Shown here one piece after another: positions 9,592 to 52,578 of a DNA stretch of 59,296 nucleotides; position 1 is the stretch's first letter, and each line of letters starts with the position of its first letter. Source of the stretch: Halanaerobiaceae bacterium (GTDB lineage Bacteria; Bacillota; Halanaerobiia; Halanaerobiales; Halarsenatibacteraceae). The position numbers were made by a program, and so were the translations under genes. The stretch spans positions 1 to 59,296 of the forward strand of contig PWEJ01000101.1 in assembly GCA_003553485.1 (NCBI GenBank), given 5' to 3'. A model generated the notes under the pieces. That model saw only the letters and a list, made by a program, of their open reading frames with translations. It was not told the DNA's origin and made no database searches.

Positions 9592-9663
9592 TTTGGTTAA
9601 ACTATTTAAAAATCGCTCTGATTATGATAGACTGATTAGTAACAAATAAATAATTTTTAAATA

Positions 9664-9740: not shown

Positions 9741-9840
9741 TTATTTTTAAATAGTAAATTATTTTTTTCTCAATTTATTTACAAATTATCCAAAAAAATT
9801 GCACAAATTTAAAAAAAGTTTCGACCAGAAAGGAAGTAAA

Positions 9841-11553: not shown

Positions 11554-11580
11554 AGATATCTGACAATATATTCCTTTCAA

Positions 11581-11610
11581 AACCCCTCAGTGGTTTGCTG
11601 AGGGGTTTTT
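11581..11610 (+). terminator. Rho-independent terminator after the chemoreceptor gene
   Basis: aacccctcag and ctgaggggtt form a perfect 10-bp stem around tggtttg, followed by T residues. Confidence 0.92.
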
Positions 11611-11671
11611 ATTTGCTATATACACTAATTATTGTTAAAATTAATACAAAATAAGGTAGAGGGATAAAATA

Positions 11672-13603: not shown

Positions 13604-13698
13604 TTAATTCTTTATTTAGTTTTCTAATAAGCAAGTATAAAGGATGTAATTATCAGATAACCTTAATCAAAGGCAAAGTTCTTTAAGGAGGAGAAAAC

Positions 13699-14529: not shown

Positions 14530-14569
14530 TTGGTATATTTTAATATTGCTTTAACCTGGAGGTGAACTT

Positions 14570-17473
14570 ATGAATGATGAAGAAGATTGTAATAATGAAA
14601 TTTCTTATCAGTCTTTTATTAATGCTCTGCCCTACAGTGCTGCTATTTTAGATGATAAGGGAGTAATCATTGATGTCAATGAAAAGTGGAAGGAATTTGG
14701 CAGGCAGAACAATTTAGCAATGACAAATAATGGTATAGGAATTAATTATATTAGAGTAGCTGAGCAGGCAGCAGGAGAAGAAGCCAGCGGATCCACAGAA
14801 GCTGCCACTGGAATAAAAGAAATAATTTCCGGCCAGCGAGACATTTTTACTTTAGAATTTCCCTGTCATTCAGATGAAGAAAAACGCTGGTTTGCAATGA
14901 AAGTTAAGCCCCTTAATGAGGGTGCTTTAGTTTTACATGAAAATATAACAGAAAGAAAGATAGAAAAACTATGGAATAAAGCCCTTTTTAAGAACAGCAA
15001 TTCAGCTATAGCCAGATTAGATAGTGAGCATAAAGTTTTAAATATAAATAATAAATTTGCGGAAAAATTTGGCTGGTCTTTAAAGAATATAAAAGGAAAG
15101 AACCTGGATAAAGTCCTGGAAAGAAAAAATCCTGAAAGTATAGATAAAAATCTGACTAAACAGGTAATGGAAGGCCAGAGGGTTAAAAAAGAGGGTACCA
15201 GATATACCAATAAAGGAGAAGCAAGAGAATTTTTAATTAAAGGTATACCAGTAAATTTAGAAGATGATGTCCAGGGAATATATGCTATTTATGATGATAT
15301 CACAGAGATTAAAGAGAAAGAAGAAATATTGGACTCAATATTCAGCTCTTCTTTAGACCTTTATTACTTTATTGCAGAACCTACTGAAGATAACCAGGAT
15401 GCTATCATTAAAGATATCAGCCCCGGGGCTTTACAGGTCTTTGGTTATGATAATGATAAAATATCAAAAAAAGATATAATTGGAAAACCAATCTCCCTAT
15501 TCCAAACCTCTCAAATGGCTGAAAAAAACCCCGAAATGCATCAAGCAGTAAAAAACGGCAATACAATTACAGTTAAAAATAAAATGATTGGCCCTGATGA
15601 TAATGAATTCACCGTATTATCCTTTGTCTCACCCTTTAAAACAGGAGATAATAACAAGGTAATATCAGTTTCACTTAATATCAGTGAAGTAGAGGAAACC
15701 AGAAAAAATTTGGCAGCTACATTAGACTCAATTGGAGACGCCGTTATTACCACTGATAAAGATGGCATAATAAATCGGATGAATCCAGTGGCTGAACAAT
15801 TAACAGGTTATTCCTTTAAAGAGGCCCAAAATAAACCCCTGGCTGAAATATTTAACATTATCAATGCAAATACCAGAGAGAAAGTGCAAAATCCAGTGGA
15901 TGAAGTACTAAAAAAAGAGAAAAAAATAGGTCTGGCCAATCATGCTGTCTTAATTTCAAGGAATGGTCAGGAGTATCATATAGCCGATTCTGCTGCTCCC
16001 ATAAAAGATGCTGAAGAAGATCTGATGGGGGTTGTTTTAATTTTTAGGGATATTAGTGAAAAATACAAAATGAGAGAAAAAATCGCGGAAAGTGAAAAAC
16101 GCTTTCAAAAAATGCTGGAAGTTATTCCCGATATGATCTCCATCCAGGATAAAGATATGAATATTATTTATAGTAACTGGAAAGAAATCGCTGATGTTCC
16201 AGAACACAAAAGGCAATTGCATACCAAATGCTATAAAACCTACCGGGGTTATGAGGAGATTTGCCCTGATTGCCAGGCTATTTCTGTCCTGGAAAATAAC
16301 CAGCCTTTGCAGAAGGAAATTAAACTTTCCAATGGTGGCTGGTATGATTTAAGGGCGATTCCCATCCAGGAAGACAGCCAGGGTAATGTAGAGCTCTTTG
16401 TAGAATGGATTAGAGATATCACCGAGATAAAAGAAAGGGAAGAGAGAATTCGTTATATTTCCTATCATGACAGTTTGACTGATCTTTACAACCGTAATTA
16501 TATGGAAGAAGCGATTAAAAAAATTGACTCCCGGGATAAATTGCCTGTTGGTGTTATCATGGTTGATATTAATGGTCTTAAGGTTATTAATGAGGCCTAT
16601 GGGCATGAAAAAGGAGATGAAATATTAACTAAGACAGCTGATATATTGACTTCTTCTATCCGAAATAAAGATATTTTAGCCCGCTGGGCAGGAGATGAGT
16701 TTATTATATTGCTGCCACAAACAAAAGAAAAACAAACTAAAGAAGTCATAAACTGCATTAAAAATAAGGTCAATGAGACCCAGATTGAGGATATTCCTTT
16801 ATCCTTTGGAATTGGAGCTGCCTTAAAAAGAAATCGCCGGCAAAACATTTATGAAGTTATCCATCAGGCAGAGGATAGAGTATATAAAGATAAACTGACT
16901 CAGAGCAGGAGCACCAAAAACAAATTGGTCAAAAGCATGTTAAGTACTCTGGGAGCTAAAAGTGATGAAACAAAGGAACATTCAATGCGAATGGCTAAAT
17001 ATAGCATGCAACTGGGAGAAAAAATTAATCTTAGTACTGATCAACTAAATAATTTAACCTTACTGGCTACCTTACATGATATAGGTAAGGTTAATATAGC
17101 TGAAGAAGTATTAAACAAGGCAGAAAAATTAACCGATGAAGAATGGGAAAAGATAAAAGAACATCCGGAGAAAGGATATCTGATCGCTTCATCGATTGAA
17201 GAATTTGCTCCAATAGCAGAACCTATACTGGCCCATCATGAATACTGGAATGGAGATGGTTACCCTCAGGGTTTAGAAGGTGAGGAAATACCTCTTTTAG
17301 CCCGGATTATTAGCATTGTCGATGCCTTTGATGTAATGACTAATGGTCGCCCTTATCAGAAGGCCAAAACCCGGAAAGAAGCCCTGCAGGAAATAAAAGA
17401 TTGTGCTGGCAGTCAGTTTGATCCGAAACTGGCAGCAAAATTTGTGGAGGTAATTCAAGAATCAGATAGTTAA
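14570..17473 (+). CDS. Multi-PAS/GGDEF/HD-GYP c-di-GMP turnover protein
   Basis: This 967-residue cytoplasmic protein has about five PAS domains (near 15-125, 134-250, 253-380, 381-500 and 511-625), then GGDEF (630-780) and HD-GYP (790-960). The cyclase motif is AGDEF (from 707), an active variant in known enzymes, with an RNKD I-site. The phosphodiesterase has HDIGK (His836), HHEYWNG and GYP (897). The fifth PAS carries Cys554, Cys565 and Cys568 in a C-x10-C-x2-C pattern seen in many anaerobe PAS domains; it may bind metal or an Fe-S cluster. The ATG follows cctggaggtgaa. Confidence 0.9.
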   Translation: MNDEEDCNNEISYQSFINALPYSAAILDDKGVIIDVNEKWKEFGRQNNLAMTNNGIGINYIRVAEQAAGEEASGSTEAATGIKEIISGQRDIFTLEFPCHSDEEKRWFAMKVKPLNEGALVLHENITERKIEKLWNKALFKNSNSAIARLDSEHKVLNINNKFAEKFGWSLKNIKGKNLDKVLERKNPESIDKNLTKQVMEGQRVKKEGTRYTNKGEAREFLIKGIPVNLEDDVQGIYAIYDDITEIKEKEEILDSIFSSSLDLYYFIAEPTEDNQDAIIKDISPGALQVFGYDNDKISKKDIIGKPISLFQTSQMAEKNPEMHQAVKNGNTITVKNKMIGPDDNEFTVLSFVSPFKTGDNNKVISVSLNISEVEETRKNLAATLDSIGDAVITTDKDGIINRMNPVAEQLTGYSFKEAQNKPLAEIFNIINANTREKVQNPVDEVLKKEKKIGLANHAVLISRNGQEYHIADSAAPIKDAEEDLMGVVLIFRDISEKYKMREKIAESEKRFQKMLEVIPDMISIQDKDMNIIYSNWKEIADVPEHKRQLHTKCYKTYRGYEEICPDCQAISVLENNQPLQKEIKLSNGGWYDLRAIPIQEDSQGNVELFVEWIRDITEIKEREERIRYISYHDSLTDLYNRNYMEEAIKKIDSRDKLPVGVIMVDINGLKVINEAYGHEKGDEILTKTADILTSSIRNKDILARWAGDEFIILLPQTKEKQTKEVINCIKNKVNETQIEDIPLSFGIGAALKRNRRQNIYEVIHQAEDRVYKDKLTQSRSTKNKLVKSMLSTLGAKSDETKEHSMRMAKYSMQLGEKINLSTDQLNNLTLLATLHDIGKVNIAEEVLNKAEKLTDEEWEKIKEHPEKGYLIASSIEEFAPIAEPILAHHEYWNGDGYPQGLEGEEIPLLARIISIVDAFDVMTNGRPYQKAKTRKEALQEIKDCAGSQFDPKLAAKFVEVIQESDS

Positions 17474-17571
17474 ACCCTACCTTCTTAAGTTTGCACCTTG
17501 CTATTCTACCGAAAATTACTTGCATTAATTTAGGCCAATGCTTAAAATAAAGGTACAAGCAAAGTCTTTTT

Positions 17572-20142
17572 ATGGGAGGAGGGATTATTATTAATGATTT
17601 TGCCAGTAACAGTGAAGAATTTGCTTCCCAATCTATTTTTTCTTCTTTGCCTGGAGGGGCATTGCTCCTTGATAAAAATTTGGAAATTAAGTTAACCAAT
17701 AAGAAGTGGAAGGAAAAAATGGCGGAACTGAAACCGGCTTTTACTTCTGCTGGCGAGAATAAAAAATTTTCCAAATTTCTTGTGCAAATTGGCTGTTTTT
17801 CTGAAACTGTCAAAAATGTAAAAAAGAAATTGATCAGCATTATTGAGCAGAGAGAGCAGGAATTAAAGGAAGCAGTAGCTTTTCCAGCAGGGAATAAAAC
17901 CAAAATCTTTGAGTTTACATTTAGCAAATATAAAGATGGAGTATTGATATTGACAGAAGACATAACAGTTCAAGCAGAAAGAAAAAAAGAATTTGAGATG
18001 TTAAAATTTTCTGTAGATAATGCTGATATAATGGTTATGAGGGTAACTCCTGCCGGAGAGATTTTATATGCTAATGAGCAGTTGAGCAAAAAGCTGAATT
18101 ATCCTCCAGAAGAAATGGTTGGTTTAAATGTTAGAAAAATTTTGGCCGAAGATGAATTTATTGATCGGCAAAAATTCTGGCATAAAATAAAGGAGAATAA
18201 CTCTATCTCCTACGAAAGAAAATTTGTGAGTAAAGAGGGACGAGTTTTTTCTGTCAGCATTGTAAGCCAATTCTTTGAGTATGGAGAAGAAGAGTATGAA
18301 TTTGTTTTTGCTCAGGATATAACGGCTCAAAAAGAGATGGAAGAGGAGCTAAGAGTACGAGAACAACAGTACCGCAAGATATTTAACACTGCTCCAGTAG
18401 GTATGGAGGTAAAAGATTCTAAAGGGATAATAATTGATGTTAATGATAGGTTATGTGAATTAACTGGTTATGATAAAGAAGAACTGGTGGGGGAAAGCCT
18501 CTTTGATATTATTGTCCCGAAAGAATTTGAGGATAAGGCCCGGGAGGATTTCAACAAAATTTTGGCCGGTGAAAATTTAGAACAGCTATTACCTTCCAGG
18601 AAAAAATCAGGTGAATATTATTTTGTTAATTTAAAAGACACCAGGATTCAATTGCCCGGGGGTGAGTACGGGGTTATAAGTATGAGACTGGATGTAACTG
18701 ATAGATTAGAGGCGGAAAAGGAGCTGAGGGAAGAGAAGGAAAGATTTCGCTCTTTAGCAGAGACAAGCCCCTTTGGTCTCTGTGTTTACAGGGATAAATT
18801 CATTTACGTGAACCAGGCTTTAGTGGAGATGACTGGTTATTCAAAGGAAGAAATTTTAGCCATGAATTTTTGGGAGCTGGTGGCGCCGGAACATCAGGCT
18901 TTGGTGAAAAAAAGAGGTTATGCCAGGTTGAAAGGTAAGAAGCCAATCTCTAATTATGAATTTAAATTGCAGCGCAAAGACGGGAAAAAGTTCTGGATAT
19001 TATTTTCCGGTACTAGAATTGATTATAGGGGGGGACCTGCCGGTCTCGGTACAGTAATAAATATCTCTGAGCGGAAAAAGGCGGAGGACAAGTTAAGATA
19101 TTTGAGCTACCATGATAGTCTGACTTCTCTTTATAACCGTACTTTTGTGGAAGAAGAGATGGCACGGCTTAACACAGAAAGGCAGCACCCCCTGAGCATT
19201 ATTTATTGTGATGTAAATGGCCTTAAGATTGTCAATGATACCTATGGTCATAAAACCGGGGATGAATTATTGGAGGAAGTTGCCAGGATCTTAAATAGCG
19301 CTATCAGGGATGAAGATCTTCTAGCTCGCTGGGCTGGCGATGAATTTGTGATCTTACTGCCCCAGACTGATTCTGCTCTGGCCCAAAAAATAGCCAATCG
19401 AATAGAAGAAGCCTGTCAAAGAGCAAACTTCAAAGATATCCCCATTAGCCTTGGAATTGGTATAGCTACTAAAAAAACTGTAGAAGAAAAATTCCAGGAG
19501 GTTTTAAGTAGAGCCGATAAGAAGATGTACGAGAATAAACTCACCAAAGCCAATAGTGCTGAAAATAAACTGGTACAAAATATGATGAATACTCTAGGGG
19601 CTAAAAGTGCTGAGACAAAAGAACATGCGATGAGAATGACTCATTTAGCTCATCAATTAGGTGATAAAATAAATCTTTCTAATGAGCAGTTAAATAAACT
19701 ATCTCTCCTGGCAACTCTCCATGATATTGGTAAAACTACTATTTCAGAGAAAATTTTGACGAAGCCAGGAGACTTATCGGAGGAAGAGTGGCAGATAATA
19801 AAGGAACATCCTGAGAGAGGATATAAAATAGCTTCAGCCACAGAAGAATTTGCTCCAATAGCCAAAGCTATTTTACATCACCATGAAAAATGGGACGGTT
19901 CAGGTTACCCCGCCGGATTAAAGGGTCGAGAAATACCGCTTTTATCTCGAATTATTGCTATAGTGGATGCCTTTGATGTTATGACCTCCGGCCGGCCCTA
20001 TAAAAAACCCATGAGTGAAGAAGAAGCCCTGCAGGAAATAGAAGTATGCTCGGGTGATCAGTTTGATCCTGAATTAGCTGAGGAATTTGTAGAGATGATA
20101 GTTGGCCAAAAATCAAAAAATATTTCCCTGGATGTAAATTAA
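17572..20142 (+). CDS. Multi-PAS/GGDEF/HD-GYP c-di-GMP turnover protein
   Basis: This protein of about 856 residues has four PAS-type domains (about 20-135, 144-260, 267-385 and 392-510), GGDEF (515-665) and HD-GYP (670-850). The cyclase motif is AGDEF (588) with an RDED I-site. The phosphodiesterase has HDIGK (His717), HHEKWDG and GYP (778). The start is a problem: the first ATG (17572) is immediately followed by gggaggaggg, which looks like the real RBS. Translation may begin at one of three ATT codons (17584-17592) just downstream, a rare start. The difference is only a few residues. It is closely related to the 14570 gene, so local duplication is likely. Confidence 0.88.
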   Translation: MGGGIIINDFASNSEEFASQSIFSSLPGGALLLDKNLEIKLTNKKWKEKMAELKPAFTSAGENKKFSKFLVQIGCFSETVKNVKKKLISIIEQREQELKEAVAFPAGNKTKIFEFTFSKYKDGVLILTEDITVQAERKKEFEMLKFSVDNADIMVMRVTPAGEILYANEQLSKKLNYPPEEMVGLNVRKILAEDEFIDRQKFWHKIKENNSISYERKFVSKEGRVFSVSIVSQFFEYGEEEYEFVFAQDITAQKEMEEELRVREQQYRKIFNTAPVGMEVKDSKGIIIDVNDRLCELTGYDKEELVGESLFDIIVPKEFEDKAREDFNKILAGENLEQLLPSRKKSGEYYFVNLKDTRIQLPGGEYGVISMRLDVTDRLEAEKELREEKERFRSLAETSPFGLCVYRDKFIYVNQALVEMTGYSKEEILAMNFWELVAPEHQALVKKRGYARLKGKKPISNYEFKLQRKDGKKFWILFSGTRIDYRGGPAGLGTVINISERKKAEDKLRYLSYHDSLTSLYNRTFVEEEMARLNTERQHPLSIIYCDVNGLKIVNDTYGHKTGDELLEEVARILNSAIRDEDLLARWAGDEFVILLPQTDSALAQKIANRIEEACQRANFKDIPISLGIGIATKKTVEEKFQEVLSRADKKMYENKLTKANSAENKLVQNMMNTLGAKSAETKEHAMRMTHLAHQLGDKINLSNEQLNKLSLLATLHDIGKTTISEKILTKPGDLSEEEWQIIKEHPERGYKIASATEEFAPIAKAILHHHEKWDGSGYPAGLKGREIPLLSRIIAIVDAFDVMTSGRPYKKPMSEEEALQEIEVCSGDQFDPELAEEFVEMIVGQKSKNISLDVN

Positions 20143-42017: not shown

Positions 42018-42890
42018 ATGTCAACCAAAGCAAGGCTATTTTTGGGAATTTTTGTGATATTTTTCTTAATTATGTCCCTTAGTTCGTTTGGTCCTGCTCG
42101 GGCCCAGGAAATATTAGAAGAGCCTGAATTAAATGATGAAGATTGGCTGGCAGAGTCAGTAGGTGGTATAGAAGCCGACCAGGAAAAACTAACCAACAAC
42201 ATTCAGGACATTGCCATGCCTCTTTACTTTTTAGAAAATTATTTAGCAGAAGTTCTCCCTGCCATTGCCGAGCCGGGAGATTATAAAATCAACAGTCTCC
42301 CTACCCGGGAAGGACTTTTTGAGATTGAAGATATAGAACAGGTGAGCAAACAGTTTGAAGAACAGCCGGAAGACTGGGAGGAGGGGGATGACTGGCAGTG
42401 GAATTTTCAGGACGATGAACGTTATGTAGAGATAAACTTAACCTCTCGCCAGATTGATTTTGTTGAGGAGCCAGGCAAGCCTTTATTAAGCCGTCTGATA
42501 CTTGATCTTGAATATTATACTCCTGATTATGAAGTTACAGGAATTATTCATTTATATGATGATTTCGATGATCTGGATTTTTCTATTACATTAGAGCATT
42601 ATGATGCCGCCTATGATAAAGTAGAGGCTGAAATAAGCATGGACTTACTTGATAGAGTGGAAAATAGATTTAGTTTTTCTGGTGATATGTACTTGCCAGG
42701 GCTTAATGTTAGCGGTCAGCATCAATTCATATTTACTGACCGTCCCCTGGAACTACCTCGCACCAAACCTTTGTATTTAGATGAGTTTATCTTCAATGGT
42801 TATATAGGTTCAGAAAGTTTTGCTATAGAAGGGGATCTATGGATCTGCAGAAGTTCAATCGTGATGGATGGTTATACAGTAATCTATTAA
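42018..42890 (+). CDS. Secreted acidic protein preceding the Rnf-like genes, unknown
   Basis: This 290-residue protein has a signal peptide (LFLGIFVIFFLIMSLSSF, cleavage near ARA-QEI). The mature part is acidic and looks beta-rich (LILDLEYYTPDYEVTGIIHL, SFSGDMYLPGLNVSGQH). It has no cysteine motif for a cofactor, only a single Cys near the end (LWICRSS). I recognise no family. The ATG follows aaaggggga. It ends 25 bases before rnfD, so co-expression is likely. It may be an extra extracytoplasmic subunit or assembly factor; this is inference. Confidence 0.65.
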   Translation: MSTKARLFLGIFVIFFLIMSLSSFGPARAQEILEEPELNDEDWLAESVGGIEADQEKLTNNIQDIAMPLYFLENYLAEVLPAIAEPGDYKINSLPTREGLFEIEDIEQVSKQFEEQPEDWEEGDDWQWNFQDDERYVEINLTSRQIDFVEEPGKPLLSRLILDLEYYTPDYEVTGIIHLYDDFDDLDFSITLEHYDAAYDKVEAEISMDLLDRVENRFSFSGDMYLPGLNVSGQHQFIFTDRPLELPRTKPLYLDEFIFNGYIGSESFAIEGDLWICRSSIVMDGYTVIY

Positions 42891-42915: not shown

Positions 42916-43827
42916 ATGTCGGAAAATCCTGACATAGTTGTGACTGAAGCGCCCCACTTAATGTCTGATGGAGATTCCACTCTTTTAGTAATGTCAGATG
43001 TTTTGTTGGCGCTTTTACCTGCGACTCTAGCAGGTATATATCTTTTTGGCATTAATACACTTTATGTTATTATGGCGGCTGTTTTTACAGCCATGGCTGT
43101 AGAGGCAGTCTTTTTGCGACGTATTGGAAGCTTTCAGGAAGTGTTGGGCGATGGCAGTGCAGCAGTAACAGGTTTGCTGCTGGCCCTAACCCTGCCACCT
43201 GATATCTCACCAGGATTGGCTGCTGCCGGAGCAGCAATGGGAATTATCATTGGTAAACTTTTATTAGGAGGGTTAGGCCATAATATTTTTAATCCCGCCC
43301 TTGTTGGCCGGGCAATATTACTGGCAATCTGGCCGGCAGCAATGACGACTTACTCCAGCCCTTTAGATGGCAATACTACTGCTACAGTTTTAGGTGGGGC
43401 TGAGTATAGTTATGCAGAGATGTTCCTCGGCAATATTCCAGGTAGCATAGGAGAGACTTCTGCTCTGTTACTGCTTTTGGGAGCAATTTATCTCTTCTTT
43501 AGGGGTAGAATAGGCTGGCGCATTCCTTTAGGTTATTTAGGCACTGTTGCCCTTTTATCACCATTATTTGGGGCCAATGTTCTGGTACAATTACTTGGTG
43601 GAGGTTTGATGCTCGGCGCCTTTTATATGGCTACTGATATGGTGACCTCTCCCATGGATGATCGGGCAAAATTGATCTTTGGAGTTGGCTGTGGACTCTT
43701 TACGATTGTTATTCGGGAGTTAGCAACTCTACCTGAAGGCGTAACTTATGCTATCTTACTCATGAATGCTCTGGTACCTTTAATGGATAGATATATCAAA
43801 CGCAGAGCCTTTGGAGAGGTGAATTAA
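42916..43827 (+). CDS. rnfD: Rnf complex subunit D (NqrB-like membrane flavoprotein)
   Basis: This 303-residue membrane protein has about nine helices. Conserved RnfD signatures include GKLLLGGLGHNIFNPALVGR, FLGNIPGSIGETSALLLLLG and GAFYMATDMVTSPMD. The usual FMN-acceptor motif S-G-A-T appears as T-T-A-T with Thr157, so covalent FMN attachment is plausible but the glycine is changed. It is the first Rnf gene here, whereas rnfC usually comes first. The ATG follows aaaggaggag; the next gene begins one base after the stop. Confidence 0.93.
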   Translation: MSENPDIVVTEAPHLMSDGDSTLLVMSDVLLALLPATLAGIYLFGINTLYVIMAAVFTAMAVEAVFLRRIGSFQEVLGDGSAAVTGLLLALTLPPDISPGLAAAGAAMGIIIGKLLLGGLGHNIFNPALVGRAILLAIWPAAMTTYSSPLDGNTTATVLGGAEYSYAEMFLGNIPGSIGETSALLLLLGAIYLFFRGRIGWRIPLGYLGTVALLSPLFGANVLVQLLGGGLMLGAFYMATDMVTSPMDDRAKLIFGVGCGLFTIVIRELATLPEGVTYAILLMNALVPLMDRYIKRRAFGEVN

Positions 43828-43828
43828 A

Positions 43829-44374
43829 ATGGCTGGAGATAAAAAATATTCTACTAGCATATTTATTGTGGCTATAACCCTGGTGGTTGCAGTTTTGGTC
43901 TTATCTTACGGTTATAGTATTGTGCAGGAATTAGCTGTTGCCGAAGATGTAGATGAAGAAGTCAGGGAGCATTTGGTGGCTATCTATGGAGAGGATGCTT
44001 CCTTTTCTGAGTTTGAATATGAAGGTGAGGTTTTTTATGCAGCTAGAGAAGCAGGAGATACCATCGGGGTAGCTCACACCGGTAGTGGCTCCGGTTATGG
44101 TGGAGATATTTATGTGCTTACGGGTATTGATCGTACAGGAGAAATAGTGGGTATTGCTGTTAAAGACCATCAGGAAACACCTGATTTAGGAGATAGAGTT
44201 GAGGATGATGATTTTCGAGAAAGATTTGTTGGTTTAGCTTTAAATGACCCAATAGAAATTGGCGATGATGTTTCTGGCTTAACAGGAGCAACTGTTTCAG
44301 CAGAAGGTGTAGCAGAAGCTGTTAGGTCTTCAGTTCAAAAAGCCTTTGACGCCATGCAGTCAGGTGAATATTAG
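43829..44374 (+). CDS. rnfG: Rnf complex subunit G (NqrC-like FMN protein)
   Basis: This 181-residue protein has one N-terminal helix (about 10-30) and an extracytoplasmic FMN-binding domain. The covalent FMN site is intact, TGATVSAEGV with Thr155, as is the HQETPDLGDRV segment. It carries electrons on the outer face of the membrane in known Rnf complexes. The mature part is acidic. The gene is tightly spaced after rnfD and 20 bases before rnfE. Confidence 0.93.
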   Translation: MAGDKKYSTSIFIVAITLVVAVLVLSYGYSIVQELAVAEDVDEEVREHLVAIYGEDASFSEFEYEGEVFYAAREAGDTIGVAHTGSGSGYGGDIYVLTGIDRTGEIVGIAVKDHQETPDLGDRVEDDDFRERFVGLALNDPIEIGDDVSGLTGATVSAEGVAEAVRSSVQKAFDAMQSGEY

Positions 44375-44394
44375 AAAGGGGGAGCTCAGCTAAT

Positions 44395-44991
44395 ATGGAG
44401 TTATTTTCATCGAAATTCTGGCAACAATCAAGAATCTATTTGCTTCTCATAGCATTAGCTCCGGCTTTAGGTGGGGCAACCAATTTTATCAATGCCCTTT
44501 ATCTGGGGTTGATTACTCTGGTTATAACAATAGCGGCCGGGCTAGTAAATGTCGCTTTAAAAGGAATTATCGATAAAGAAGCTAGAGTACCTTTCACAGT
44601 AATAGTTACTCTAACTTTGTTAACTATATATCAATTCTATTTGACAATTTTTAATGCTTCCCTGCTGGACGAATTGGGAATTTTTATTCCCCTGGTAGCT
44701 TTAAATGTTCTGGTCTTGCGGCAGACAGTTTTATTTGAAGTGGAAGATGTGAGTAAAGAGTTCCGCAAAAGTGTCTGGTTAGGTGTGCAATTTCTCTTTA
44801 TACTGATTTTTCTCGGTGGCCTGCGTGAGGTCTTTTCCACCGGTGGAATAATGGGAACTGAACTTTTAGCTCGAGACCTATCATTTTTTGGAGAACCCGG
44901 GGGAATGATGATAATCCTGGGCATGCTTTTTGCTTTAGTAAAAGCAATTGCTCCTGAATTACAGCAAGAACGAGAAAAGGGGGTAAAATAG
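44395..44991 (+). CDS. rnfE: Rnf complex subunit E, lacking both cluster cysteines
   Basis: This 198-residue membrane protein of the NqrD/RnfE family has recognisable ALAPALGGATNFINALYLGL and LGIFIPLVALNV. In typical RnfE both places carry Cys (LGLCP; IPLIVxNC) that bind an intramembrane [2Fe-2S] cluster with RnfA. Here they are Ala22 and Val105. The overall hydrophobic pattern and the GGLREVFSTGGIMG segment are kept, so the fold is probably intact. The start ATG follows aaagggggag; the stop lies one base before rnfA. Confidence 0.88.
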   Translation: MELFSSKFWQQSRIYLLLIALAPALGGATNFINALYLGLITLVITIAAGLVNVALKGIIDKEARVPFTVIVTLTLLTIYQFYLTIFNASLLDELGIFIPLVALNVLVLRQTVLFEVEDVSKEFRKSVWLGVQFLFILIFLGGLREVFSTGGIMGTELLARDLSFFGEPGGMMIILGMLFALVKAIAPELQQEREKGVK

Positions 44992-44992
44992 C

Positions 44993-45565
44993 ATGCTGGA
45001 TCTATTTTATCTTTTGCTGGGAGGAGTACTCTGGAATAATGTGATATTAACCCAGTTATTAGGATTATCACCCTTTTTAGTTGAACGGGAAAGAGCCTCA
45101 GTGGAGGACCTCTGGGGAATGGGAATGATGACAACAGCTTTATTAGTTGCTTCAGCTTTTCTAGCCTTTCTGGCTTATGATGTGGTGCTTTTACCCCTGG
45201 GTTTAGAGTTTTTGGATAATCTAATATTGATAATAATTGTCTTTTTGTTAGTATTATTATTCCAACAATATAAAGATGAAGGAGAACGAGGTAAACGCTG
45301 GCATTTATATTTACCTGATGTTTTTATGAATACTGCTATTTTTGGTGTTTTATTATTAAATGTAGCTGAATGGGAAACTTTAATTGAGGCTCTGGTAGGA
45401 GCAGCTGGTTTTGGCTTGGGCTTTGCTTTTATGCTGGTTATTGTGGAATCCTTTAACAAGCGCCTGGAAAAGTTACCTCTGCCAAACTGGATTACTGGAG
45501 TACCAGCCCAATTGATTACTTTGGGAATTTTAGCCCTGGCAGTATCAGGCTTTAATGGGCTATAA
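44993..45565 (+). CDS. rnfA: Rnf complex subunit A, lacking both cluster cysteines
   Basis: This 190-residue membrane protein of the NqrE/RnfA family has six helices. The equivalents of the cluster cysteines are changed: LGLSPFL has Ser26 (usually LGLCPF), and FMNTAIFGVLLLN has Thr114 (usually TNCAVLG). Other family features remain (ILWNN-like start, LYLPDVF, GFGLGFAFMLV). Together with RnfE this removes all four ligands of the intramembrane [2Fe-2S] site. No rnfB gene follows, unlike the usual rnfCDGEAB order. Confidence 0.88.
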   Translation: MLDLFYLLLGGVLWNNVILTQLLGLSPFLVERERASVEDLWGMGMMTTALLVASAFLAFLAYDVVLLPLGLEFLDNLILIIIVFLLVLLFQQYKDEGERGKRWHLYLPDVFMNTAIFGVLLLNVAEWETLIEALVGAAGFGLGFAFMLVIVESFNKRLEKLPLPNWITGVPAQLITLGILALAVSGFNGL

Positions 45566-45596
45566 AATTTAAAGAATTTATGGAGGTGTACCTTAA

Positions 45597-46931
45597 GTGA
45601 GAACTATAAAGTCCTTTGATAAAGGGATGTATATCCCTCATCACAAGGAATATACGAATGATAAAAAAATAACTAGATTGTTGCCCTACCCTAAAGAAGT
45701 GATAATACCTTTAAATCAGCATATTGGCGAAACAGTTGAGCCTTTAGTTGAAGTTGGAGATAGAGTTGAGGTTGGAGATAAAATTGGGGACTTAGATGAA
45801 TTTTGGAGTGCCCCGGTCTTTGCCAGCCTATCAGGGGAAGTAAAGGCTATTGAACCTCGACCCACGGGGACGAATGGCGATTGCCTTTCAGTAGTTATAG
45901 CAGCTGATGAAGAACAACCAGAATTCACTATAGAGGAGCGGGAAAACTGGGAGCAGTTATCAATAAATGAACTAAAAAATCTCCTGCAGGAAAATGGTAT
46001 AGTTGGTATGGGAGGAGCTGCCTGTCCCACCCACATTAACGTCAGTGCTGATGATCCCGTCCCCAACTTAATTTTAAATGGAGCAGAATGTGAACCCTTT
46101 TTAACCTGTGACCACCGGATGATGGTGGAATGGGCCGATAAATTAATTAAAGGAGCCCAGATTCTCTTTAGAATCATTCAAGCTCAGGACTGTTTTATTG
46201 GCATTGAAACCAATAAACCTGATGCTATTGAAGTTTTAGAAGAGAAGACGGCAGATCTAGAACATTTCCATGTTGTTCCTTTAGATACCAAATATCCTCA
46301 GGGTTACAAAAAGACTTTGATAAAGGCTATAACTGATAAAGAACCACCTATGGGCGCTCGGTCAGCAGAAGTTGGCTGTATAGTGAGAAATGTAGGTACA
46401 ACAATAGCTATTTATGATGCTATTGTGAACCAAAAACCTTTATTTGAGCGTGTTACAACTGTCAGCGGACCGGAGACAATTCCCCAGGCCGGAAATTATA
46501 TAGTACCTATCGGTACTCCGGTAAGACATATATTAGAGGTCTGTGGTGTTGATACCGATAATATTTCCAGCCATAAGATAATTTTAGGAGGAGCAATGAC
46601 TGGTTCTGCTGTCACCACCCTGGATGCTCCAGTTACCAAAAGTGATACCGGCGTTTTATTATTACCTGAAGAAATGGTCGAGTTAAATGAGGAAGTTGGC
46701 CCCTGCATCCGCTGTGGTAAATGTGTAGATAACTGTCCGATGTTTTTATTTCCCAATGAGTTGAGTTTGTCTGCTGAAGCCGAGGATTACCATGAAGCCG
46801 AGCGTCTCCACGCCACTGAATGTGCGGAATGTGGAATTTGCAGTTACGTTTGTCCTTCCCGCCGGCCAGTGGTAGAATCCATAGTTCAGGCAAAGCCAGA
46901 GGCTAAAAAAATACGTCGCAGTAAAAAGTAA
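45597..46931 (+). CDS. rnfC: Rnf complex subunit C with two [4Fe-4S] sites
   Basis: This 444-residue peripheral subunit has an N-terminal hammerhead region, a NuoF-like FMN/NADH domain, an SLBB-like segment and two ferredoxin motifs (from Cys370, CIRCGKCVDNCP; from Cys409, CAECGICSYVCP). NGAECEPFLTCDHRMM is conserved. The nucleotide/flavin loop reads GGAACPTHIN (139-148) where relatives have GGAGFPTHVK; the usual Lys is Asn148. NADH or FMN binding may differ. GTG 45597 follows tggaggtgta. It is last in the operon, an unusual position, and is followed by a terminator. Confidence 0.92.
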   Translation: MRTIKSFDKGMYIPHHKEYTNDKKITRLLPYPKEVIIPLNQHIGETVEPLVEVGDRVEVGDKIGDLDEFWSAPVFASLSGEVKAIEPRPTGTNGDCLSVVIAADEEQPEFTIEERENWEQLSINELKNLLQENGIVGMGGAACPTHINVSADDPVPNLILNGAECEPFLTCDHRMMVEWADKLIKGAQILFRIIQAQDCFIGIETNKPDAIEVLEEKTADLEHFHVVPLDTKYPQGYKKTLIKAITDKEPPMGARSAEVGCIVRNVGTTIAIYDAIVNQKPLFERVTTVSGPETIPQAGNYIVPIGTPVRHILEVCGVDTDNISSHKIILGGAMTGSAVTTLDAPVTKSDTGVLLLPEEMVELNEEVGPCIRCGKCVDNCPMFLFPNELSLSAEAEDYHEAERLHATECAECGICSYVCPSRRPVVESIVQAKPEAKKIRRSKK

Positions 46932-46995
46932 CTATCGGGAGCAAAATGAAAAAACAAATAAAACTTAGTAAATAATATAAAATTATATGCTGGCA

Positions 46996-47036
46996 AACCG
47001 GGGAGATTACTTCCCCGGTTATCTTTCTTTTAATTT
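46996..47036 (+). terminator. Rho-independent terminator of the Rnf-like operon
   Basis: aaccgggga (46996-47004) and tccccggtt (47012-47020) form a perfect 9-bp stem, followed by a T-rich tract. Confidence 0.92.
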
Positions 47037-47051
47037 ATTTCTCTTTATCCC

Positions 47052-47079
47052 TTACAAAGCAGTGATTTTTTGATATAAT
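47052..47079 (+). promoter_or_regulatory. Putative promoter of the unknown gene at 47131
   Basis: TTACAA, 16 bases, TATAAT, with an extended -10 (TGATATAAT). Confidence 0.6.
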
Positions 47080-47130
47080 ATAATTATACACTAGGGGAGT
47101 GTCTGCTGAGCTTATGAGGATGTGAGATCA

Positions 47131-47712
47131 ATGCCTGACAGGTTAAATAGCATCTCAGGAATGGTTAATAATATTGTCCAGCAGAAAAAGATAGCTCAGA
47201 AGAAGATAACTGAACGACAGGAACAGGAAGAGGAGAGCAAATATTCCTCTGCTGGCGATGAAATAAAGGTCTCAGAATTAGGAAGAAAACTGCGCCTGTT
47301 GCTTAAAATAATTGAAAAAGAGGGAAGTGAAGAGGATTTAACAGGCTTTCACTATATCATGAAAGAATTTATTAAAAAACCAGATAGCTTTGCCATTTTG
47401 AATTTTGTAGAAGTGCTTTTAACTTTACATAAAAAAAGGTGGGATTACTTCAATGAGGTTCTCTTTCAGGCCTATATCCTGGCCAAAGATGATTTAAATC
47501 CCGGTCTCTGGCTTGGCATTTTAACTAGACTGGGAGTTGAAGAGGCAGAAAATTTTATTTATTGTACTTCAAGAATATTTCGCCAACAAAATCGCAAAGG
47601 TGTTATTAAAGAATTAGTTCAATATCTTGAGAGGGTAAGGGTTATTATCAATCAGTATGGAGAAGAAGAAAGAGATAGAAGAGTAAAACAAATATTACAG
47701 GCCGGTCAATAA
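47131..47712 (+). CDS. Hypothetical protein upstream of cheY and the flagellar operon
   Basis: This 193-residue soluble protein is mostly helical and strongly charged (QQKKIAQKKITERQEQEEES near the start; RDRRVKQIL near the end). There is no signal peptide and no motif I recognise. ATG 47131 follows gaggatgtgag. It has its own promoter and is separated from the Rnf genes by a terminator. Its place just before cheY and flgB suggests a link to motility, but this is only context. Confidence 0.65.
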   Translation: MPDRLNSISGMVNNIVQQKKIAQKKITERQEQEEESKYSSAGDEIKVSELGRKLRLLLKIIEKEGSEEDLTGFHYIMKEFIKKPDSFAILNFVEVLLTLHKKRWDYFNEVLFQAYILAKDDLNPGLWLGILTRLGVEEAENFIYCTSRIFRQQNRKGVIKELVQYLERVRVIINQYGEEERDRRVKQILQAGQ

Positions 47713-47734
47713 TGCCTTATCCACTTAACTTTTT

Positions 47735-47763
47735 TTGTAATAATTTCTAGACATTGATATAAT
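47735..47763 (+). promoter_or_regulatory. Putative cheY promoter with extended -10
   Basis: TTGTAA (47735-47740), 17 bases, TATAAT (47758-47763), preceded by TG at the extended -10 position. It would leave a leader of about 205 bases before cheY. Confidence 0.65.
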
Positions 47764-47975
47764 AAATAATATACAGGTGTTTTTTAAAGGCAAATTATAA
47801 GTCTAAAAGGCTAATATTTTTTAGTTGATAATTATAGGCAGGAATACCTGTTAGTATTTAGAATATATCCATATAGCAGTTTTTTAACTGCTTTCATTGA
47901 CCTATCTTGTTAATACTATACATCCAGGTGTTATTTTGTTGTCAAAATAAAGCACTTTGAAGGGGGAAAATATTC

Positions 47976-48332
47976 TTGAAGTCCGTACTTATTGTTGATG
48001 ATGCGGCTTTTATGCGCTTAAATCTGAGAAAGATTCTTAAAGATGACTATGAAATAATTGGCGAGGCTGAGAATGGAATAGAAGCTGTGGAGATGTATCA
48101 GGAGCATGAGCCTGATATAGTTACCATGGATATAACGATGCCAGAGATGGATGGGCTGGAGGCAATTAAAGCTATTAAAGATATTGATCCTGATGCAAAC
48201 ATAATCGTTGTAAGTGCTATGGGACAGCAAAAAATGGTTATTGATGCTATTGAAGCTGGAGCAGCTGATTTTATTGTCAAACCCTTTAAAGATGAACGTG
48301 TAATCAATGCCATTAACAAGATTTCTCAATAA
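47976..48332 (+). CDS. cheY: CheY-like single-domain response regulator
   Basis: This 118-residue stand-alone receiver has the acidic pair DD (8-9), Asp in TMDITMPEMDG and Lys in IVKPFKDE, matching Bacillus-type CheY. It would bind the flagellar switch (FliM/FliY, not in this window) when phosphorylated. The start is a TTG codon at 47976 with a strong gaaggggga RBS. The gene has its own promoter and long leader and lies just before flgB. Confidence 0.92.
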   Translation: MKSVLIVDDAAFMRLNLRKILKDDYEIIGEAENGIEAVEMYQEHEPDIVTMDITMPEMDGLEAIKAIKDIDPDANIIVVSAMGQQKMVIDAIEAGAADFIVKPFKDERVINAINKISQ

Positions 48333-48425
48333 CCTTTTATTAGTCTAAAAGACATAAGAGAGCAGTTATAACAATATTTCCTAAAAATTAGTAAAAAAGT
48401 AGTGTTTCAAATTAGTTATTTTCCT

Positions 48426-48453
48426 TTGTTGAGCTATATGATATAATTATAAT
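48426..48453 (+). promoter_or_regulatory. Putative flagellar operon promoter 1
   Basis: TTGTTG, 16 bases, TATAAT, about 115 bases before flgB. The same hexamers and spacing occur before fliF. Confidence 0.6.
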
Positions 48454-48490
48454 AATAGTAATAATTTGAAATACAACCATACTTTTTTAC

Positions 48491-48520
48491 TATTCTAGCA
48501 TTTATTATTCTAGCATTTAT
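48491..48520 (+). repeat. Perfect 15-bp tandem duplication in the flgB leader
   Basis: tattctagcatttat occurs twice in a row, with no mismatch. Confidence 0.85.
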
Positions 48521-48567
48521 TGTATTGGCAACAAATTGGCTGAAAGCAGGAAAGGAGTATTATAATA

Positions 48568-48969
48568 ATGAATGAAATGCTTAATTTACTGCAAACCGGA
48601 TTAAGCGGGGCCAGCAGAAGACAGGATGCAATTACTAATAACATTGCTAACGCTGATACTCCTGGCTACAAAAGAGAAGATGTGGATTTTAAATCTACTC
48701 TGGAAAACATGACGTCGACCAGACCCGGTCTTGAGCTAAATACCACTCATCCCGGTCATCTGACTGGTACTGGAAGTGGAGCTCACCCTCAAGAATTCAA
48801 TCATTTTCGTGAGACCGCTACTTCCCTGAGGTTGGACGGAAATAACGTCGATATTGAAAAGGAAATGGCTGAGATGGCAAAGAACAATCTATATTTTGAT
48901 ACCCTGGCCCAACAAACTGATGCCAAATTCAATACAATTCATAGTGTGCTGGAAAGGAGTGGTGGATAA
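48568..48969 (+). CDS. flgB: Flagellar proximal rod protein FlgB
   Basis: This 133-residue rod protein begins with a coiled N-terminus and the rod-family motif NNIANADTPGYKR. It ends in a helix (MAKNNLYFDTLAQQ) typical of FlgB. Length and position are standard. The ATG follows aggaaaggag; flgC starts two bases after the stop. Confidence 0.95.
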   Translation: MNEMLNLLQTGLSGASRRQDAITNNIANADTPGYKREDVDFKSTLENMTSTRPGLELNTTHPGHLTGTGSGAHPQEFNHFRETATSLRLDGNNVDIEKEMAEMAKNNLYFDTLAQQTDAKFNTIHSVLERSGG

Positions 48970-48971
48970 TA

Positions 48972-49415
48972 ATGTTTTCTAACTTTGACACCAGTGCTTC
49001 TGGCCTAACAGCCCAGAGACTGAGGATGGATACAGTAGCCGATAACATTGCTAATGTCAACACTACCAGGACTGAAGAGGGAGAACCCTATCGCCGCAGG
49101 ATGCCAGTTTTTTCTTCTCGAGATAGCGGCTCTTTTGCTAACTTTATCCAGAGAAGAATCGGCAGATTTGGTCAGGCTGATGAGCAGGGAGTAGAAGTGA
49201 CGGAGATAGCCGAGGATGAAAGCCCCTTCAAGCAGGTATATAATCCTGAACATCCTGATGCTGATGAAGAAGGTTATGTGGAGAAGCCTAATGTCGATAT
49301 TACCATGGAAATGGTTGACATGATCGATGCTTCCAGAGCTTATGAAGCTAATGTTACTGCTCTTGATACCAGCAAAAACATGGCTATGAGAGCCCTGGAT
49401 ATTGGTGGGGCATAA
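48972..49415 (+). CDS. flgC: Flagellar rod protein FlgC
   Basis: This 147-residue rod protein has the N-terminal rod motif VADNIANVNTTRT and the C-terminal VDMIDASRAYEANVTALDTSKNM. The part between is shorter than the hook protein, as expected. The ATG follows aaaggagtggtgg within the end of flgB. Confidence 0.95.
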   Translation: MFSNFDTSASGLTAQRLRMDTVADNIANVNTTRTEEGEPYRRRMPVFSSRDSGSFANFIQRRIGRFGQADEQGVEVTEIAEDESPFKQVYNPEHPDADEEGYVEKPNVDITMEMVDMIDASRAYEANVTALDTSKNMAMRALDIGGA

Positions 49416-49460
49416 TTTAAAATTAGATGCAGGCCTTAAAAATGAGGAGGAAAGATAGCA

Positions 49461-49763
49461 GTGGAGCCTATCTCAGAAAGACTAAATGTATTGGTAGATA
49501 ATGGTCTGGCGGAAAGAACTTCACGGGCAGCTGAAGAGGAAGGGCCCAGTTTTGCCGATATTGTCCAGGAAAATATAGCTGAGGTTAATGAATTAGAAAA
49601 AGAAGCAGATCAGTTAACCGAAGATTTTGCTCTGGGAAAGACTGATAATATCCATGATGTAGCTATTGCAACAGAAAAGGCCCGAATAGCCCTGGACCTT
49701 ACTCTGGAAGTACAGAGAAGAGTAGTAGATGCCTTTGATGAAGTTATGCGGATGCAGATATAA
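49461..49763 (+). CDS. fliE: Flagellar hook-basal body protein FliE
   Basis: This 100-residue protein links the MS ring to the rod. The C-terminal part DNIHDVAIATEKARIALDLT with LEVQRRVVDAFDEVMRMQI is diagnostic. The start is GTG 49461 behind aggaggaaag. An unusual 206-base gap with its own promoter separates it from fliF. Confidence 0.93.
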   Translation: MEPISERLNVLVDNGLAERTSRAAEEEGPSFADIVQENIAEVNELEKEADQLTEDFALGKTDNIHDVAIATEKARIALDLTLEVQRRVVDAFDEVMRMQI

Positions 49764-49969
49764 GGATAAATTAAATTATTTAGCTTTAAGAATTACATAA
49801 TATGGCTTTATAATTTTTGTTGTTATTTATTTGTTATTTATAATTCTATTTAATCGTAATCTATATTTTATTTAATACATTATTTTTAGTTTCAAATATT
49901 ATCTTTAATTTATTATCTAGATGTTAGACAATAAATTTCTACTTAATTTTAAGTGGGGTATAAAATATT
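49764..49969. other. AT-rich gap inside the flagellar operon
   Basis: It contains no ORF. It carries a candidate promoter at 49817-49844 and long A/T runs. Most Firmicute operons run from fliE to fliF with little space. Confidence 0.55.
49817..49844 (+). promoter_or_regulatory. Putative flagellar operon promoter 2 (before fliF)
   Basis: TTGTTG (49817-49822), 16 bases, TATAAT (49839-49844). It is identical in hexamers and spacing to the candidate before flgB. Confidence 0.6.
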
Positions 49970-51538
49970 ATGGATAGGCTGAGAGAGTATTTAAATCAGC
50001 TAAAGGAAATATGGGATAATCTTAATACCAGGGGGAAAATTATAACCGGCACAGTGGCAGGAGCGGTATTATTTGGCCTGCTCTTTTTGGTTTTTCGTTC
50101 TCCGGCCCGAAATTATCAACCTCTTTTTCAGCAACTCACGCCGGAAGATGCCAGTGCCATTGTAGAGGAACTGGAAACCAGGGATGTTAATTACCAGCTA
50201 GCTGAAGATGGCCAGACAATTATGGTCCCCGCTGATGATGTCCACCGGATGAGACTGGAGATGGCAGCAGAAGGGTTGCCAGAACAGGGGTTGGTTGGTT
50301 TTGAAATTTTTGATGAAACTCAGTTTGGCACCACCGATTTTGAGAGAAGAGTTAACCTCTATCGAGCGATGGGGGGAGAAATTAGCCGATCGATTCAGTC
50401 TATGAATAATATAGCCATGGCTCGGGTCCAGATCACTGCCCCGGAAGAAAGCCTCTTTATTGATGAGGAAAGGCCAGCTAAAGCATCGGTTATGCTTGAG
50501 CTTGAGCCCAATGTAGAACTTTCGGAAAGTCAGGCTCGAGCTATTGCTAATTTAGTATCCAGCAGTGTTCCAGATTTACAACCTGACAACGTTACCATTG
50601 TTGACACTGCCGGCAATTTGCTTTCTCCCCAGCAGAGAGGTGAAGAGTTAGATATAGCAGAGGGAACTTCTGAGCAGCGAGAGTTAGAAAGGGATTATGC
50701 CGATAGATTAAAGAGTGAGTTAAATGCTATGTTGACGAGAATATTAGGACCTGATAATTTTACAGTACAGGTTTCAGCCCGGATGAATTTTGATCAACGA
50801 GAAAGAGAATCTATGACCTATCTGCCGGTAATAGATGATGAGGAAGGGATTCCCCGCAGTCGGCAGGAGATGGTGGAGATGTATCGCGGGGAAGAATTAG
50901 AAGATGGAGGAGTGCCAGGGACTACCAGTAATATACCAGGCTATGAGGCCATCGAAGAGATGGAAGATGGCAGTTATCAGCGCTCAGAGACCATCATTAA
51001 TTACGAGATGGATGAAATCTTTGAGCGGGAGACCTTTGCCCCTGGTTCTTTAGAATTACTTTCAGTTTCAGTAATGATAGATGATGAGATGGAAGAGGAT
51101 GAACTGCTGGCTTTAGAACAATCCATCCAGGCTGCCATTGGCTATGAAGAGGAGCGAGGAGATACTGTTAATGTAGCCAGCATGGATTTTGACCGCACCT
51201 TAGAAGAAGAGATGGAACTGGCCAGAGCCCAAGCTGAAGAAGAGAGACAACGTCAGATGATGATGTATGCTATTCTAATAGGGGTGGTGCTGGTCATAAC
51301 GGCCATAACTATCTTTATACTCCGTCGCCGTACCGGACAAGAAGCCGAGCCCGTTCCAGAAGGTGCCAGGGTTGATATGATGGTAGATGATGAAGAAGAG
51401 GAAGAGGTTGAATTGCCTGAAGAGGAATTGAGTGAGGAAGAGAAGAAACTTCGCAAAATGCGTGATGAACTAAAAGAGATAGCTGAAGAACAGCCTGAAG
51501 AGATTGCTGATCTATTAAAAAGCTGGCTAATGGAATAG
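49970..51538 (+). CDS. fliF: Flagellar MS-ring protein FliF
   Basis: This 522-residue ring protein has a first membrane helix (about 24-42), the YscJ/FliF ring-building domain (from VFRSPARNYQPLFQQLTPED), a periplasmic part, a second helix (about 430-448, MMYAILIGVVLVITAITIFI) and an acidic cytoplasmic tail that binds FliG (ELKEIAEEQPEEIADLLKSW). The length is normal. The start is ATG 49970 behind taagtggggt. Confidence 0.95.
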   Translation: MDRLREYLNQLKEIWDNLNTRGKIITGTVAGAVLFGLLFLVFRSPARNYQPLFQQLTPEDASAIVEELETRDVNYQLAEDGQTIMVPADDVHRMRLEMAAEGLPEQGLVGFEIFDETQFGTTDFERRVNLYRAMGGEISRSIQSMNNIAMARVQITAPEESLFIDEERPAKASVMLELEPNVELSESQARAIANLVSSSVPDLQPDNVTIVDTAGNLLSPQQRGEELDIAEGTSEQRELERDYADRLKSELNAMLTRILGPDNFTVQVSARMNFDQRERESMTYLPVIDDEEGIPRSRQEMVEMYRGEELEDGGVPGTTSNIPGYEAIEEMEDGSYQRSETIINYEMDEIFERETFAPGSLELLSVSVMIDDEMEEDELLALEQSIQAAIGYEEERGDTVNVASMDFDRTLEEEMELARAQAEEERQRQMMMYAILIGVVLVITAITIFILRRRTGQEAEPVPEGARVDMMVDDEEEEEVELPEEELSEEEKKLRKMRDELKEIAEEQPEEIADLLKSWLME

Positions 51539-51573
51539 GGCTCTACTGTAATCAAAAGAGGTGACTTAAATTA

Positions 51574-52578
51574 ATGGCTAATAACATAGATGGTCGGAAA
51601 AAAGCAGCGGTACTGATGGTCTCTTTAGGGCCTGATATTTCTGCTAAAGTTTTCAAACATCTTTCCGACGAGGAAATAGAAGAATTAACCCTGGAAATTG
51701 CCAATATGCAAAAGATTGATAAAAGTGAGAAGAAAGAAATACTGGAAGAATTTTATCAACTGGCAAAGGCCCAGGAATATATCGACCGAGGTGGTATCCA
51801 GTATGCCAAGGATGTGCTGGAAAAAGCTGTGGGTGAAGATAAGGCCCGGGATATTTTAGGGCGCCTGACGGCAACTCTCCAGGTACGGCCCTTTGATGCC
51901 ATTAGAAAGACTGATCCCTCACAGATTTTAAACTTCATTCAGGGAGAACATCCCCAGACCATCGCCTTGATTTTAGCCTATCTCCAACCAGAGCAGGCTT
52001 CACAGGTAATGTCTGCTCTGCCACCGGAGATTCAAAGTGAAGTCTCCAAGCGGATAGCTATCATGGACCGCACTTCACCTGAGATCATAAAAGATGTTGA
52101 AGAAGTGTTAGAAAAGAAACTCTCCACTATAGCTACCAGTGAATATGCTTCCGCTGGCGGAATTGAATCCATTGTCGATATTCTCAATCAGGTTGATCGA
52201 GGAACAGAGAAGAATATCTTAGATCAACTGGAAGAGGAAGACCCTGAACTGGCCGAAGAGATCAAGATGAGAATGTTCGTCTTTGAAGATATAACTGTTC
52301 TCTCTGATAAAGCTATTCAGCTGGTCTTGCGTCAGGTTGACACCCATGATGTAGCGTTAGCTCTAAAGACGGCCAGCTCTGAGGTAGAAGAAAAAATATA
52401 TACCAATATGTCAGATAGAGCAGCAGAGATGTTAAAAGAAGATCTGGAATACATGGGACCTGTTCGCTTGCGGGAAGTTGAAGAAGCCCAGCAGAGGATT
52501 GTTAACGTTATCCGAGAGTTAGAAGATAGCGGCGAAATTGTAATAGCCCGAGGCGGGGAGAGTGAGGTAGTTGTCTAA
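51574..52578 (+). CDS. fliG: Flagellar motor switch protein FliG
   Basis: This 334-residue protein has N, middle and C domains. The EHPQTIALILAYLQPEQAS motif is in the middle domain, and the C-terminal torque helix contains VDTHDVALALKTASSEVEE and SDRAAEMLKEDLEYMGPVR. It converts stator force to rotation at the C ring. The start ATG follows aaagaggtgac. It overlaps fliH by 8 bases. Confidence 0.95.
   Translation: MANNIDGRKKAAVLMVSLGPDISAKVFKHLSDEEIEELTLEIANMQKIDKSEKKEILEEFYQLAKAQEYIDRGGIQYAKDVLEKAVGEDKARDILGRLTATLQVRPFDAIRKTDPSQILNFIQGEHPQTIALILAYLQPEQASQVMSALPPEIQSEVSKRIAIMDRTSPEIIKDVEEVLEKKLSTIATSEYASAGGIESIVDILNQVDRGTEKNILDQLEEEDPELAEEIKMRMFVFEDITVLSDKAIQLVLRQVDTHDVALALKTASSEVEEKIYTNMSDRAAEMLKEDLEYMGPVRLREVEEAQQRIVNVIRELEDSGEIVIARGGESEVVV

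Follow-up and report, generated by a model that had tools for sequence, protein, structure and literature searches.

In ordinary RNF complexes electrons pass from ferredoxin to RnfB and on through the [2Fe-2S] cluster held by RnfA and RnfE to RnfG, RnfD, RnfC and NAD+ (PMC12174285). The RnfA/E ligands of this cluster have been called invariant (PMC9588780) and the cluster itself essential, and mutating the cluster cysteines in Acetobacterium woodii removed two Fe and abolished ferredoxin:NAD+ activity (PMC11889175). The route taken by the ions is disputed and has been placed both in RnfA/E (PMC11889175) and in RnfD/NqrB (PMC9588780). A proposed origin of the related Na+-NQR (NqrABCDEF) is a duplicated rnf operon which lost rnfB as a first step (PMC4014512); NQR retains the A/E cluster (PMC12174285), recruited NqrF, and its NqrA, the homologue of RnfC, lost its cofactors. 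For NQR/RNF-like systems of two apparent subunits, too, it has been proposed that just one transmembrane path links NAD(P)H with an extracytosolic flavin (PMC8238504, PMC10979944); the subunits are an NqrB/RnfD-NAD domain fusion and a flavin mononucleotide (FMN) protein, and the covalent FMN site of RnfD is absent. Here we analyse a 59,296-nucleotide stretch of DNA from a Halanaerobiaceae bacterium (the window) carrying an rnf-type operon which has neither RnfB nor the RnfA/E cluster ligands. No description of an RNF of this type was found in the open-licence literature searched.

The operon lies on the + strand and encodes RnfD, RnfG, RnfE, RnfA and RnfC in that order, with no NqrF, and no RnfB is encoded in the window. 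This agrees with a preliminary description of the locus, whose gene positions held and whose residue numbers are exact by codon position. All four membrane [2Fe-2S] cysteines are replaced: in RnfE (44395..44991; 198 aa) by Ala22 (codon 44458-44460) and Val105 (44707-44709), and in RnfA (44993..45565; 190 aa) by Ser26 (45068-45070) and Thr114 (45332-45334). Neither protein contains a cysteine anywhere. Both match PF02508 (78 bits each) and score well under the NCBIfam cut-offs (89 against 213 for RnfE and 101 against 229 for RnfA). The absence of gaps around the cysteine motifs, also part of that description, was upheld by phmmer alignments to the RnfE/RnfA of three solved RNF complexes (Clostridium tetanomorphum 7zc6, A. 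woodii 9eri and Azotobacter vinelandii 8ahx) and to NqrD/E of Vibrio cholerae (7xk3). Compared with 7zc6, the RnfE motifs GMCPTL and VNCII have become ALAPAL and LNVLV and the RnfA motifs GICPFL and TNCAV have become GLSPFL and MNTAI; the loss is also seen in an alignment with the ordinary RnfE/RnfA proteins of the phylum. Misalignment of the motifs is ruled out by the gap-free phmmer alignments to four solved complexes together with a MAFFT alignment. The RnfE fold appears to be kept, since a structure model of moderate confidence (predicted local distance difference test, pLDDT, 71) best matches A. woodii RnfE (9eri_E, template modelling score 0.72).

Relatives were sought in 38 genomes of the order and in a wider set of 398 genomes of the phylum; these are mostly drafts, and the classes used here were defined from sequence alone. 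Among the 38 genomes, PF02508 proteins form ordinary pairs (198-222 bits), class 2, the window type (54-90 bits, four genomes), and class 3 (20-38 bits, nine genomes); a lone 129-bit match is a fragment. Class 4, with the organisation C-D.(FMN)n-E-A, was found in another family of the phylum. The D-G-E-A-C order is specific to class 2, other cysteine-less loci being C-D-E-A or C-D-G-E-A, and the homologues sharing this order, in all four genomes, lack the four cysteines. Their cluster positions are occupied by Ala, Val, Ser or Thr, and Thr or Ala, and are thus variable and mostly non-ligating. Substitution of the cysteines by Ser or Thr as ligands is ruled out: the Ser and Thr of the window are Thr and Ala in genome G415, and the RnfE positions are Ala and Val. 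Class 3 genes are arranged C-D-E-A, usually with arrays of FMN domains carried by RnfD (that of G410 is short), and this second cysteine-less, RnfB-less class is also present in the genome of the window, where it is probably split inside the FMN array between the ends of contigs C168 and C51. The closest named relative comes from the metagenome-assembled genome of a Halanaerobiaceae member, in which a 6-kb contig has the same gene order and a 90% identical RnfE; one wider contig scan gave a single relative, and plasmids gave weak, distant matches only.

The absence of RnfB is tied to that of the cluster in the sequences compared. Nineteen of the 21 E/A pairs with four cysteines are accompanied by rnfB and the other two are NQR, a gene read as nqrF being counted as their input subunit, while all 16 pairs with zero cysteines, from the three classes 2-4, are without RnfB or NqrF. 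If a one-path complex is defined by retention of C and D, absence of RnfB and cysteine-less A/E, the window and 15 further loci qualify, C and D being seen where the contig reaches; some class-3 loci stop at upstream contig edges, and other genes follow E and A in all. Partial cases were also found: L116 retains two cysteines and L115 and L118 one each, all without RnfB, the latter (G145) in the stretch read; L119 (G270) has rnfB, Gly at one RnfE cysteine and the first RnfA cysteine shifted by one position. L119 and L118 are possible intermediate states. On the A/E tree a test for correlated loss yielded 2 independent pairs, too few for significance. A tree of C and D with all rows is a polytomy, with full support for each of classes 2, 3 and 4; after removal of the two longest rows, a branch (96/96) sets these three classes apart, and L116 is placed beyond it (approximately unbiased test, p 0.026). 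Since the three classes group together and L116 falls apart, one old origin of the cysteine-less, RnfB-less lineage, plus at least one further separate case, is likely, although not secure.

The opposite half of the complex is well preserved: in RnfC, RnfD and RnfG, all the cofactor residues that were tested are kept. In A. woodii numbering (PMC11889175), the flavin-site residues T156 (covalent FMN), N123 and D249 (riboflavin) of RnfD correspond to T157, N126 and D241 of the window protein (42916..43827; 303 aa), a membrane subunit matching PF03116 (335 bits) and NCBIfam rnfD (273, cut-off 207); the predicted flavinylation site Thr157, in DGNTTAT, is encoded at 43384..43386. RnfG (43829..44374; 181 aa), the extracytosolic FMN_bind subunit, retains Y90 and T155 (A. 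woodii Y113 and T185), the latter a predicted flavinylation site in LTGATVS (codon 44291..44293); it matches PF04205 (55.5 bits) and, like A and E, scores below its family cut-off (NCBIfam rnfG, 71 against 102). RnfC (45597..46931; 444 aa), the FMN/NAD(H)-binding subunit, keeps eight cysteines in two [4Fe-4S] motifs of the form CxxCxxCxxxCP (46704-46739 and 46821-46856), carries Complex1_51K and RnfC_N domains, and aligns to 7zc6_C across residues 5-436; its score is 461 bits against TIGR01945 (cut-off 246) and only 39 against nqrA. The retention of the RnfC motifs and of RnfG Thr155 had been noted previously and is borne out here. Among sites that are invariant across ordinary RNF, the share retained by class 2 is 80% for C, 86% for D and 66% for G, compared with 35% for E and 50% for A. 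Constraint on the input half has thus been removed, while the output half has stayed under it. In A. woodii numbering, A/E still have RnfE R67 and N107 and RnfA N112 and E158.

A duplicate of rnf which lost rnfB and is now degrading would also show A and E well under family cut-offs and on long branches, as here. We consider such decay very improbable. The frames are open in four genomes, D and C are well conserved, and order and neighbourhood are shared between two genera; the ratio of nonsynonymous to synonymous substitution rates (dN/dS), from the unsaturated pair G418/G420, ranges from 0.05 to 0.12 across the five subunits, with E at 0.09-0.10 and A at 0.09. An operon common to four genomes, always following the same upstream gene (X, see below) and with a dN/dS near 0.09 is thus not decaying, and together with the 16 of 16 cysteine-less loci without RnfB these values support the earlier suggestion that the loss was coordinated rather than random.

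The window operon is a paralogue, because contig C111 of the genome holds an rnfCDGEAB operon of the ordinary kind in which the four cysteines are all present; its RnfB (327 aa) is the only true one that the genome encodes. The preliminary description had proposed that an rnfB elsewhere, combined with a grouping of this operon among ordinary RNF, would speak against a distinct complex; the former was found, as part of a complete operon of the ordinary kind, and the window genes group outside ordinary RNF. Two further matches to the FeS domain are unlike RnfB and were rejected as a second copy: a 57-aa frame at a contig edge and a 453-aa protein which, by our reading of the locus, sits in a CO-dehydrogenase-type gene group. 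The intact operon would in principle allow its RnfB and RnfA/E to feed the window C, D and G in trans, leaving the window A and E as bystanders. Such a hybrid is quite improbable: A and E belong to the same gene run, are conserved and are under selection, and class-2 C and D are about 41-44% identical to the ordinary subunits and form a separate, fully supported clade. Altogether the genome encodes six RnfD-type proteins and one ApbE flavin transferase.

On balance, the sequences favour a one-path RNF as the probable function: RnfC, RnfD and RnfG would pass electrons from NAD(P)H to a partner outside the cytosol, or back, and A/E would no longer be an electron carrier. Because RnfB and the cluster are gone, the remaining RnfC-RnfD-RnfG chain would link cytoplasmic NAD(P)H to the outer covalent flavin. 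Of the two paths of RNF, the input one (RnfB and the RnfA/E cluster) would have been given up and the output one retained. NAD(P)H would bind to RnfC (FMN and two [4Fe-4S]), and electrons would be exchanged from there by way of RnfD (riboflavin and covalent FMN) and RnfG (covalent FMN) with the extracytosolic partner. This reading is favoured by the kept residues of the output path, the single ApbE, the RnfD-FMN arrays of classes 3 and 4 and the distribution of X, and also by changes at RnfA residues that contact RnfB: K32 and R154 have become E33 and N155, although E158 is aligned with E159. In its simplest form NADH electrons would be exported to an external acceptor, possibly relayed by the secreted protein X, and RnfA/E would remain in the membrane as a scaffold that may also bind ions independently of a cluster. 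The sequences themselves show the gene content, the loss of the ligands, the persistence of cofactor residues, the conservation and selection, and the co-occurrence of X; from these we infer the assembly of the complex, the electron route and its direction, any ion movement, and the roles of X and of A/E. Several observations fit this scheme poorly. Purifying selection on A/E (dN/dS about 0.09) would be odd if they did nothing, and so would the class-specific conserved charged residues that they carry. The operon contains no known gene for an external acceptor, X has no recognisable redox motif, and the direction of electron flow is not readable from sequence. Finally, class-2 RnfC has altered otherwise invariant residues (F143C, K148N, E238K, L255R and P256S) which are kept in classes 3 and 4, making NADH uncertain as the substrate; the new positive charges might alter the preference between NADH and NADPH.

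Flow in the reverse direction, from an extracytosolic donor to RnfG, RnfD, RnfC and NAD+, would correspond to that in ordinary RNF, which runs this cofactor chain from outside to inside. No candidate donor was identified and nothing else points specifically against this direction; we regard it as improbable.

The class-specific residues of A/E bring up another alternative, a cluster-free ion-motive member of the RNF/NQR family. Electrons would again leave through RnfC, RnfD and RnfG to an external acceptor, and their passage between NADH and the outside partner would cause conformational changes in RnfG/RnfD that drive either alternating access of redox-free RnfA/E, with Na+ or H+ bound at a buried carboxylate/histidine site (D109, H104, E31) that replaces the cluster, or ion movement through RnfD; class 3 would be tied to an Mrp antiporter. 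RnfA D109 and H104 are identical in the four class-2 proteins, ordinary RnfA having invariant Leu and Gly there, and E31, in place of an invariant Val, occurs in classes 2 and 3. The purifying selection on A/E would be accounted for, the RnfA/E architecture is akin to that of alternating-access symporters (PMC12174285), and window RnfE R64 corresponds to A. woodii R67, which is required for growth (PMC11889175). The hosts are members of a halophilic order, and Mrp Na+/H+ antiporter genes follow the class-3 E/A genes in four genomes, at L076 (G342), L077 (G416), L075 (G417) and L074 (G421), those of L076 being MnhE, MrpF, MnhG, MnhB, MrpC-like and MrpD-like by Pfam. However, the proposed ion coupling depends on reduction of the cluster (PMC11889175), which is missing here, and residues of the proposed path are replaced: A. 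woodii RnfE E115 by V112, and RnfA T110, Q85 and E88 by F111, L88 and Q91. The loss of E115 is not decisive, because an A. woodii E115A mutant grew normally. We judge a cluster-free pump unlikely. The preliminary description had envisaged a distinct ion-motive enzyme or a transporter: a distinct, maintained complex is supported, but an ion-motive or transport role stays hypothetical. The Na+-passage residues proposed in RnfA/E are mostly changed as well.

For the favoured path from NAD(P)H to an extracytosolic partner, the best candidate for that partner is the product of gene X (42018..42890, + strand). This 290-aa protein appears, from a reading of its sequence, to start with a signal sequence, and it matches no Pfam or NCBIfam family. 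X ends 25 bp before the rnfD start and is probably the first gene of the operon; the arrangement X-D-G-E-A-C is found in all four class-2 genomes, except that a contig end splits X in G418. Its candidacy derives from the way it tracks class 2 across the order. X occurs in five of the 38 genomes, namely the four with class-2 A/E and G419, a 76% complete genome of the same genus in which X lies at a contig end; it is absent from the remaining 33, including five with class 3 and no class 2 (G342, G410, G416, G417 and G421). Identity between species is 48-71%, and the structure model (mean pLDDT 48) is too poor to use.

Compared with ordinary RNF, the window complex thus has five of the six subunits, the RnfE fold, the RnfD and RnfG flavin sites and the RnfC FMN/NAD domain with its two [4Fe-4S] motifs, and differs in the absence of RnfB and of the cluster ligands, in gene order, in the extra X and in the low family scores of A, E and G. 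With RnfC kept and the cluster lost, cysteine-less complexes are the mirror image of the proposed route from rnf to NQR. Unlike the two-subunit systems, the window operon retains A/E, RnfC and the RnfD threonine, and its RnfD matches PF03116 alone, with no fused PF00175 NAD-binding domain. Class 3 and 4 loci resemble it in lacking RnfB and the cluster cysteines and in keeping C and D; they differ in gene order, in RnfD-FMN arrays which replace a separate RnfG and, in some, in the presence of Mrp genes. These arrays are comparable to the multi-flavinylated proteins proposed to serve longer-range electron transfer (PMC8238504). With cysteine-less complexes, soda-lake and other anaerobes would have a further conserved route, linked to NAD(P)H, by which electrons cross the membrane. 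Since they constitute a natural RNF from which cluster and RnfB have been removed while the tested residues of the output path are intact, asking whether they pump would bear on both models of the ion route.

Other loci combine RnfD-type proteins in different ways. In the genome of the window, contig C93 (L061:4311-6640, - strand) carries rnfC and rnfD as a pair, with none of A, E, G or B in the neighbourhood, close to UbiA and polyprenyl synthase genes and a gene for a cytochrome b5-like protein; the pair is perhaps a minimal NADH:quinone path, and its occurrence suggests that the C-D half can stand alone. Contig C158 (L063:11366-14746, - strand) encodes an 1127-aa protein in which a molybdopterin formate-dehydrogenase-like part is fused to an RnfD/NqrB membrane domain; it adjoins NuoE/NuoF-like genes, a multi-FMN-domain protein and a CO dehydrogenase. 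In G416, a 1253-aa RnfD (L077:7665-11423, - strand) has nine FMN-binding domains and a match resembling the TonB C-terminus; ExbB/TolR/TonB-like genes, as read from sequence, follow the class-3 genes in other genomes of its family.

Downstream of the window operon, a terminator-like stem-loop with a T-rich tail (46996..47020, + strand) begins 64 bp 3' of rnfC; on its own it is weak evidence of a terminator, because the consensus scan found 11 such sites in the region against 5.1 expected. A cheY-flgB-flgC-fliE-fliF flagellar run follows the operon directly in two genera (window 46932-52578 and L073:8876-13774), indicating an old, stable neighbourhood. Upstream of the operon, at positions 7327-20142 of the window, large PAS-GGDEF-HD-GYP-like proteins are encoded in series, together with one of methyl-accepting chemotaxis-like type; these names were given from reading the sequences.

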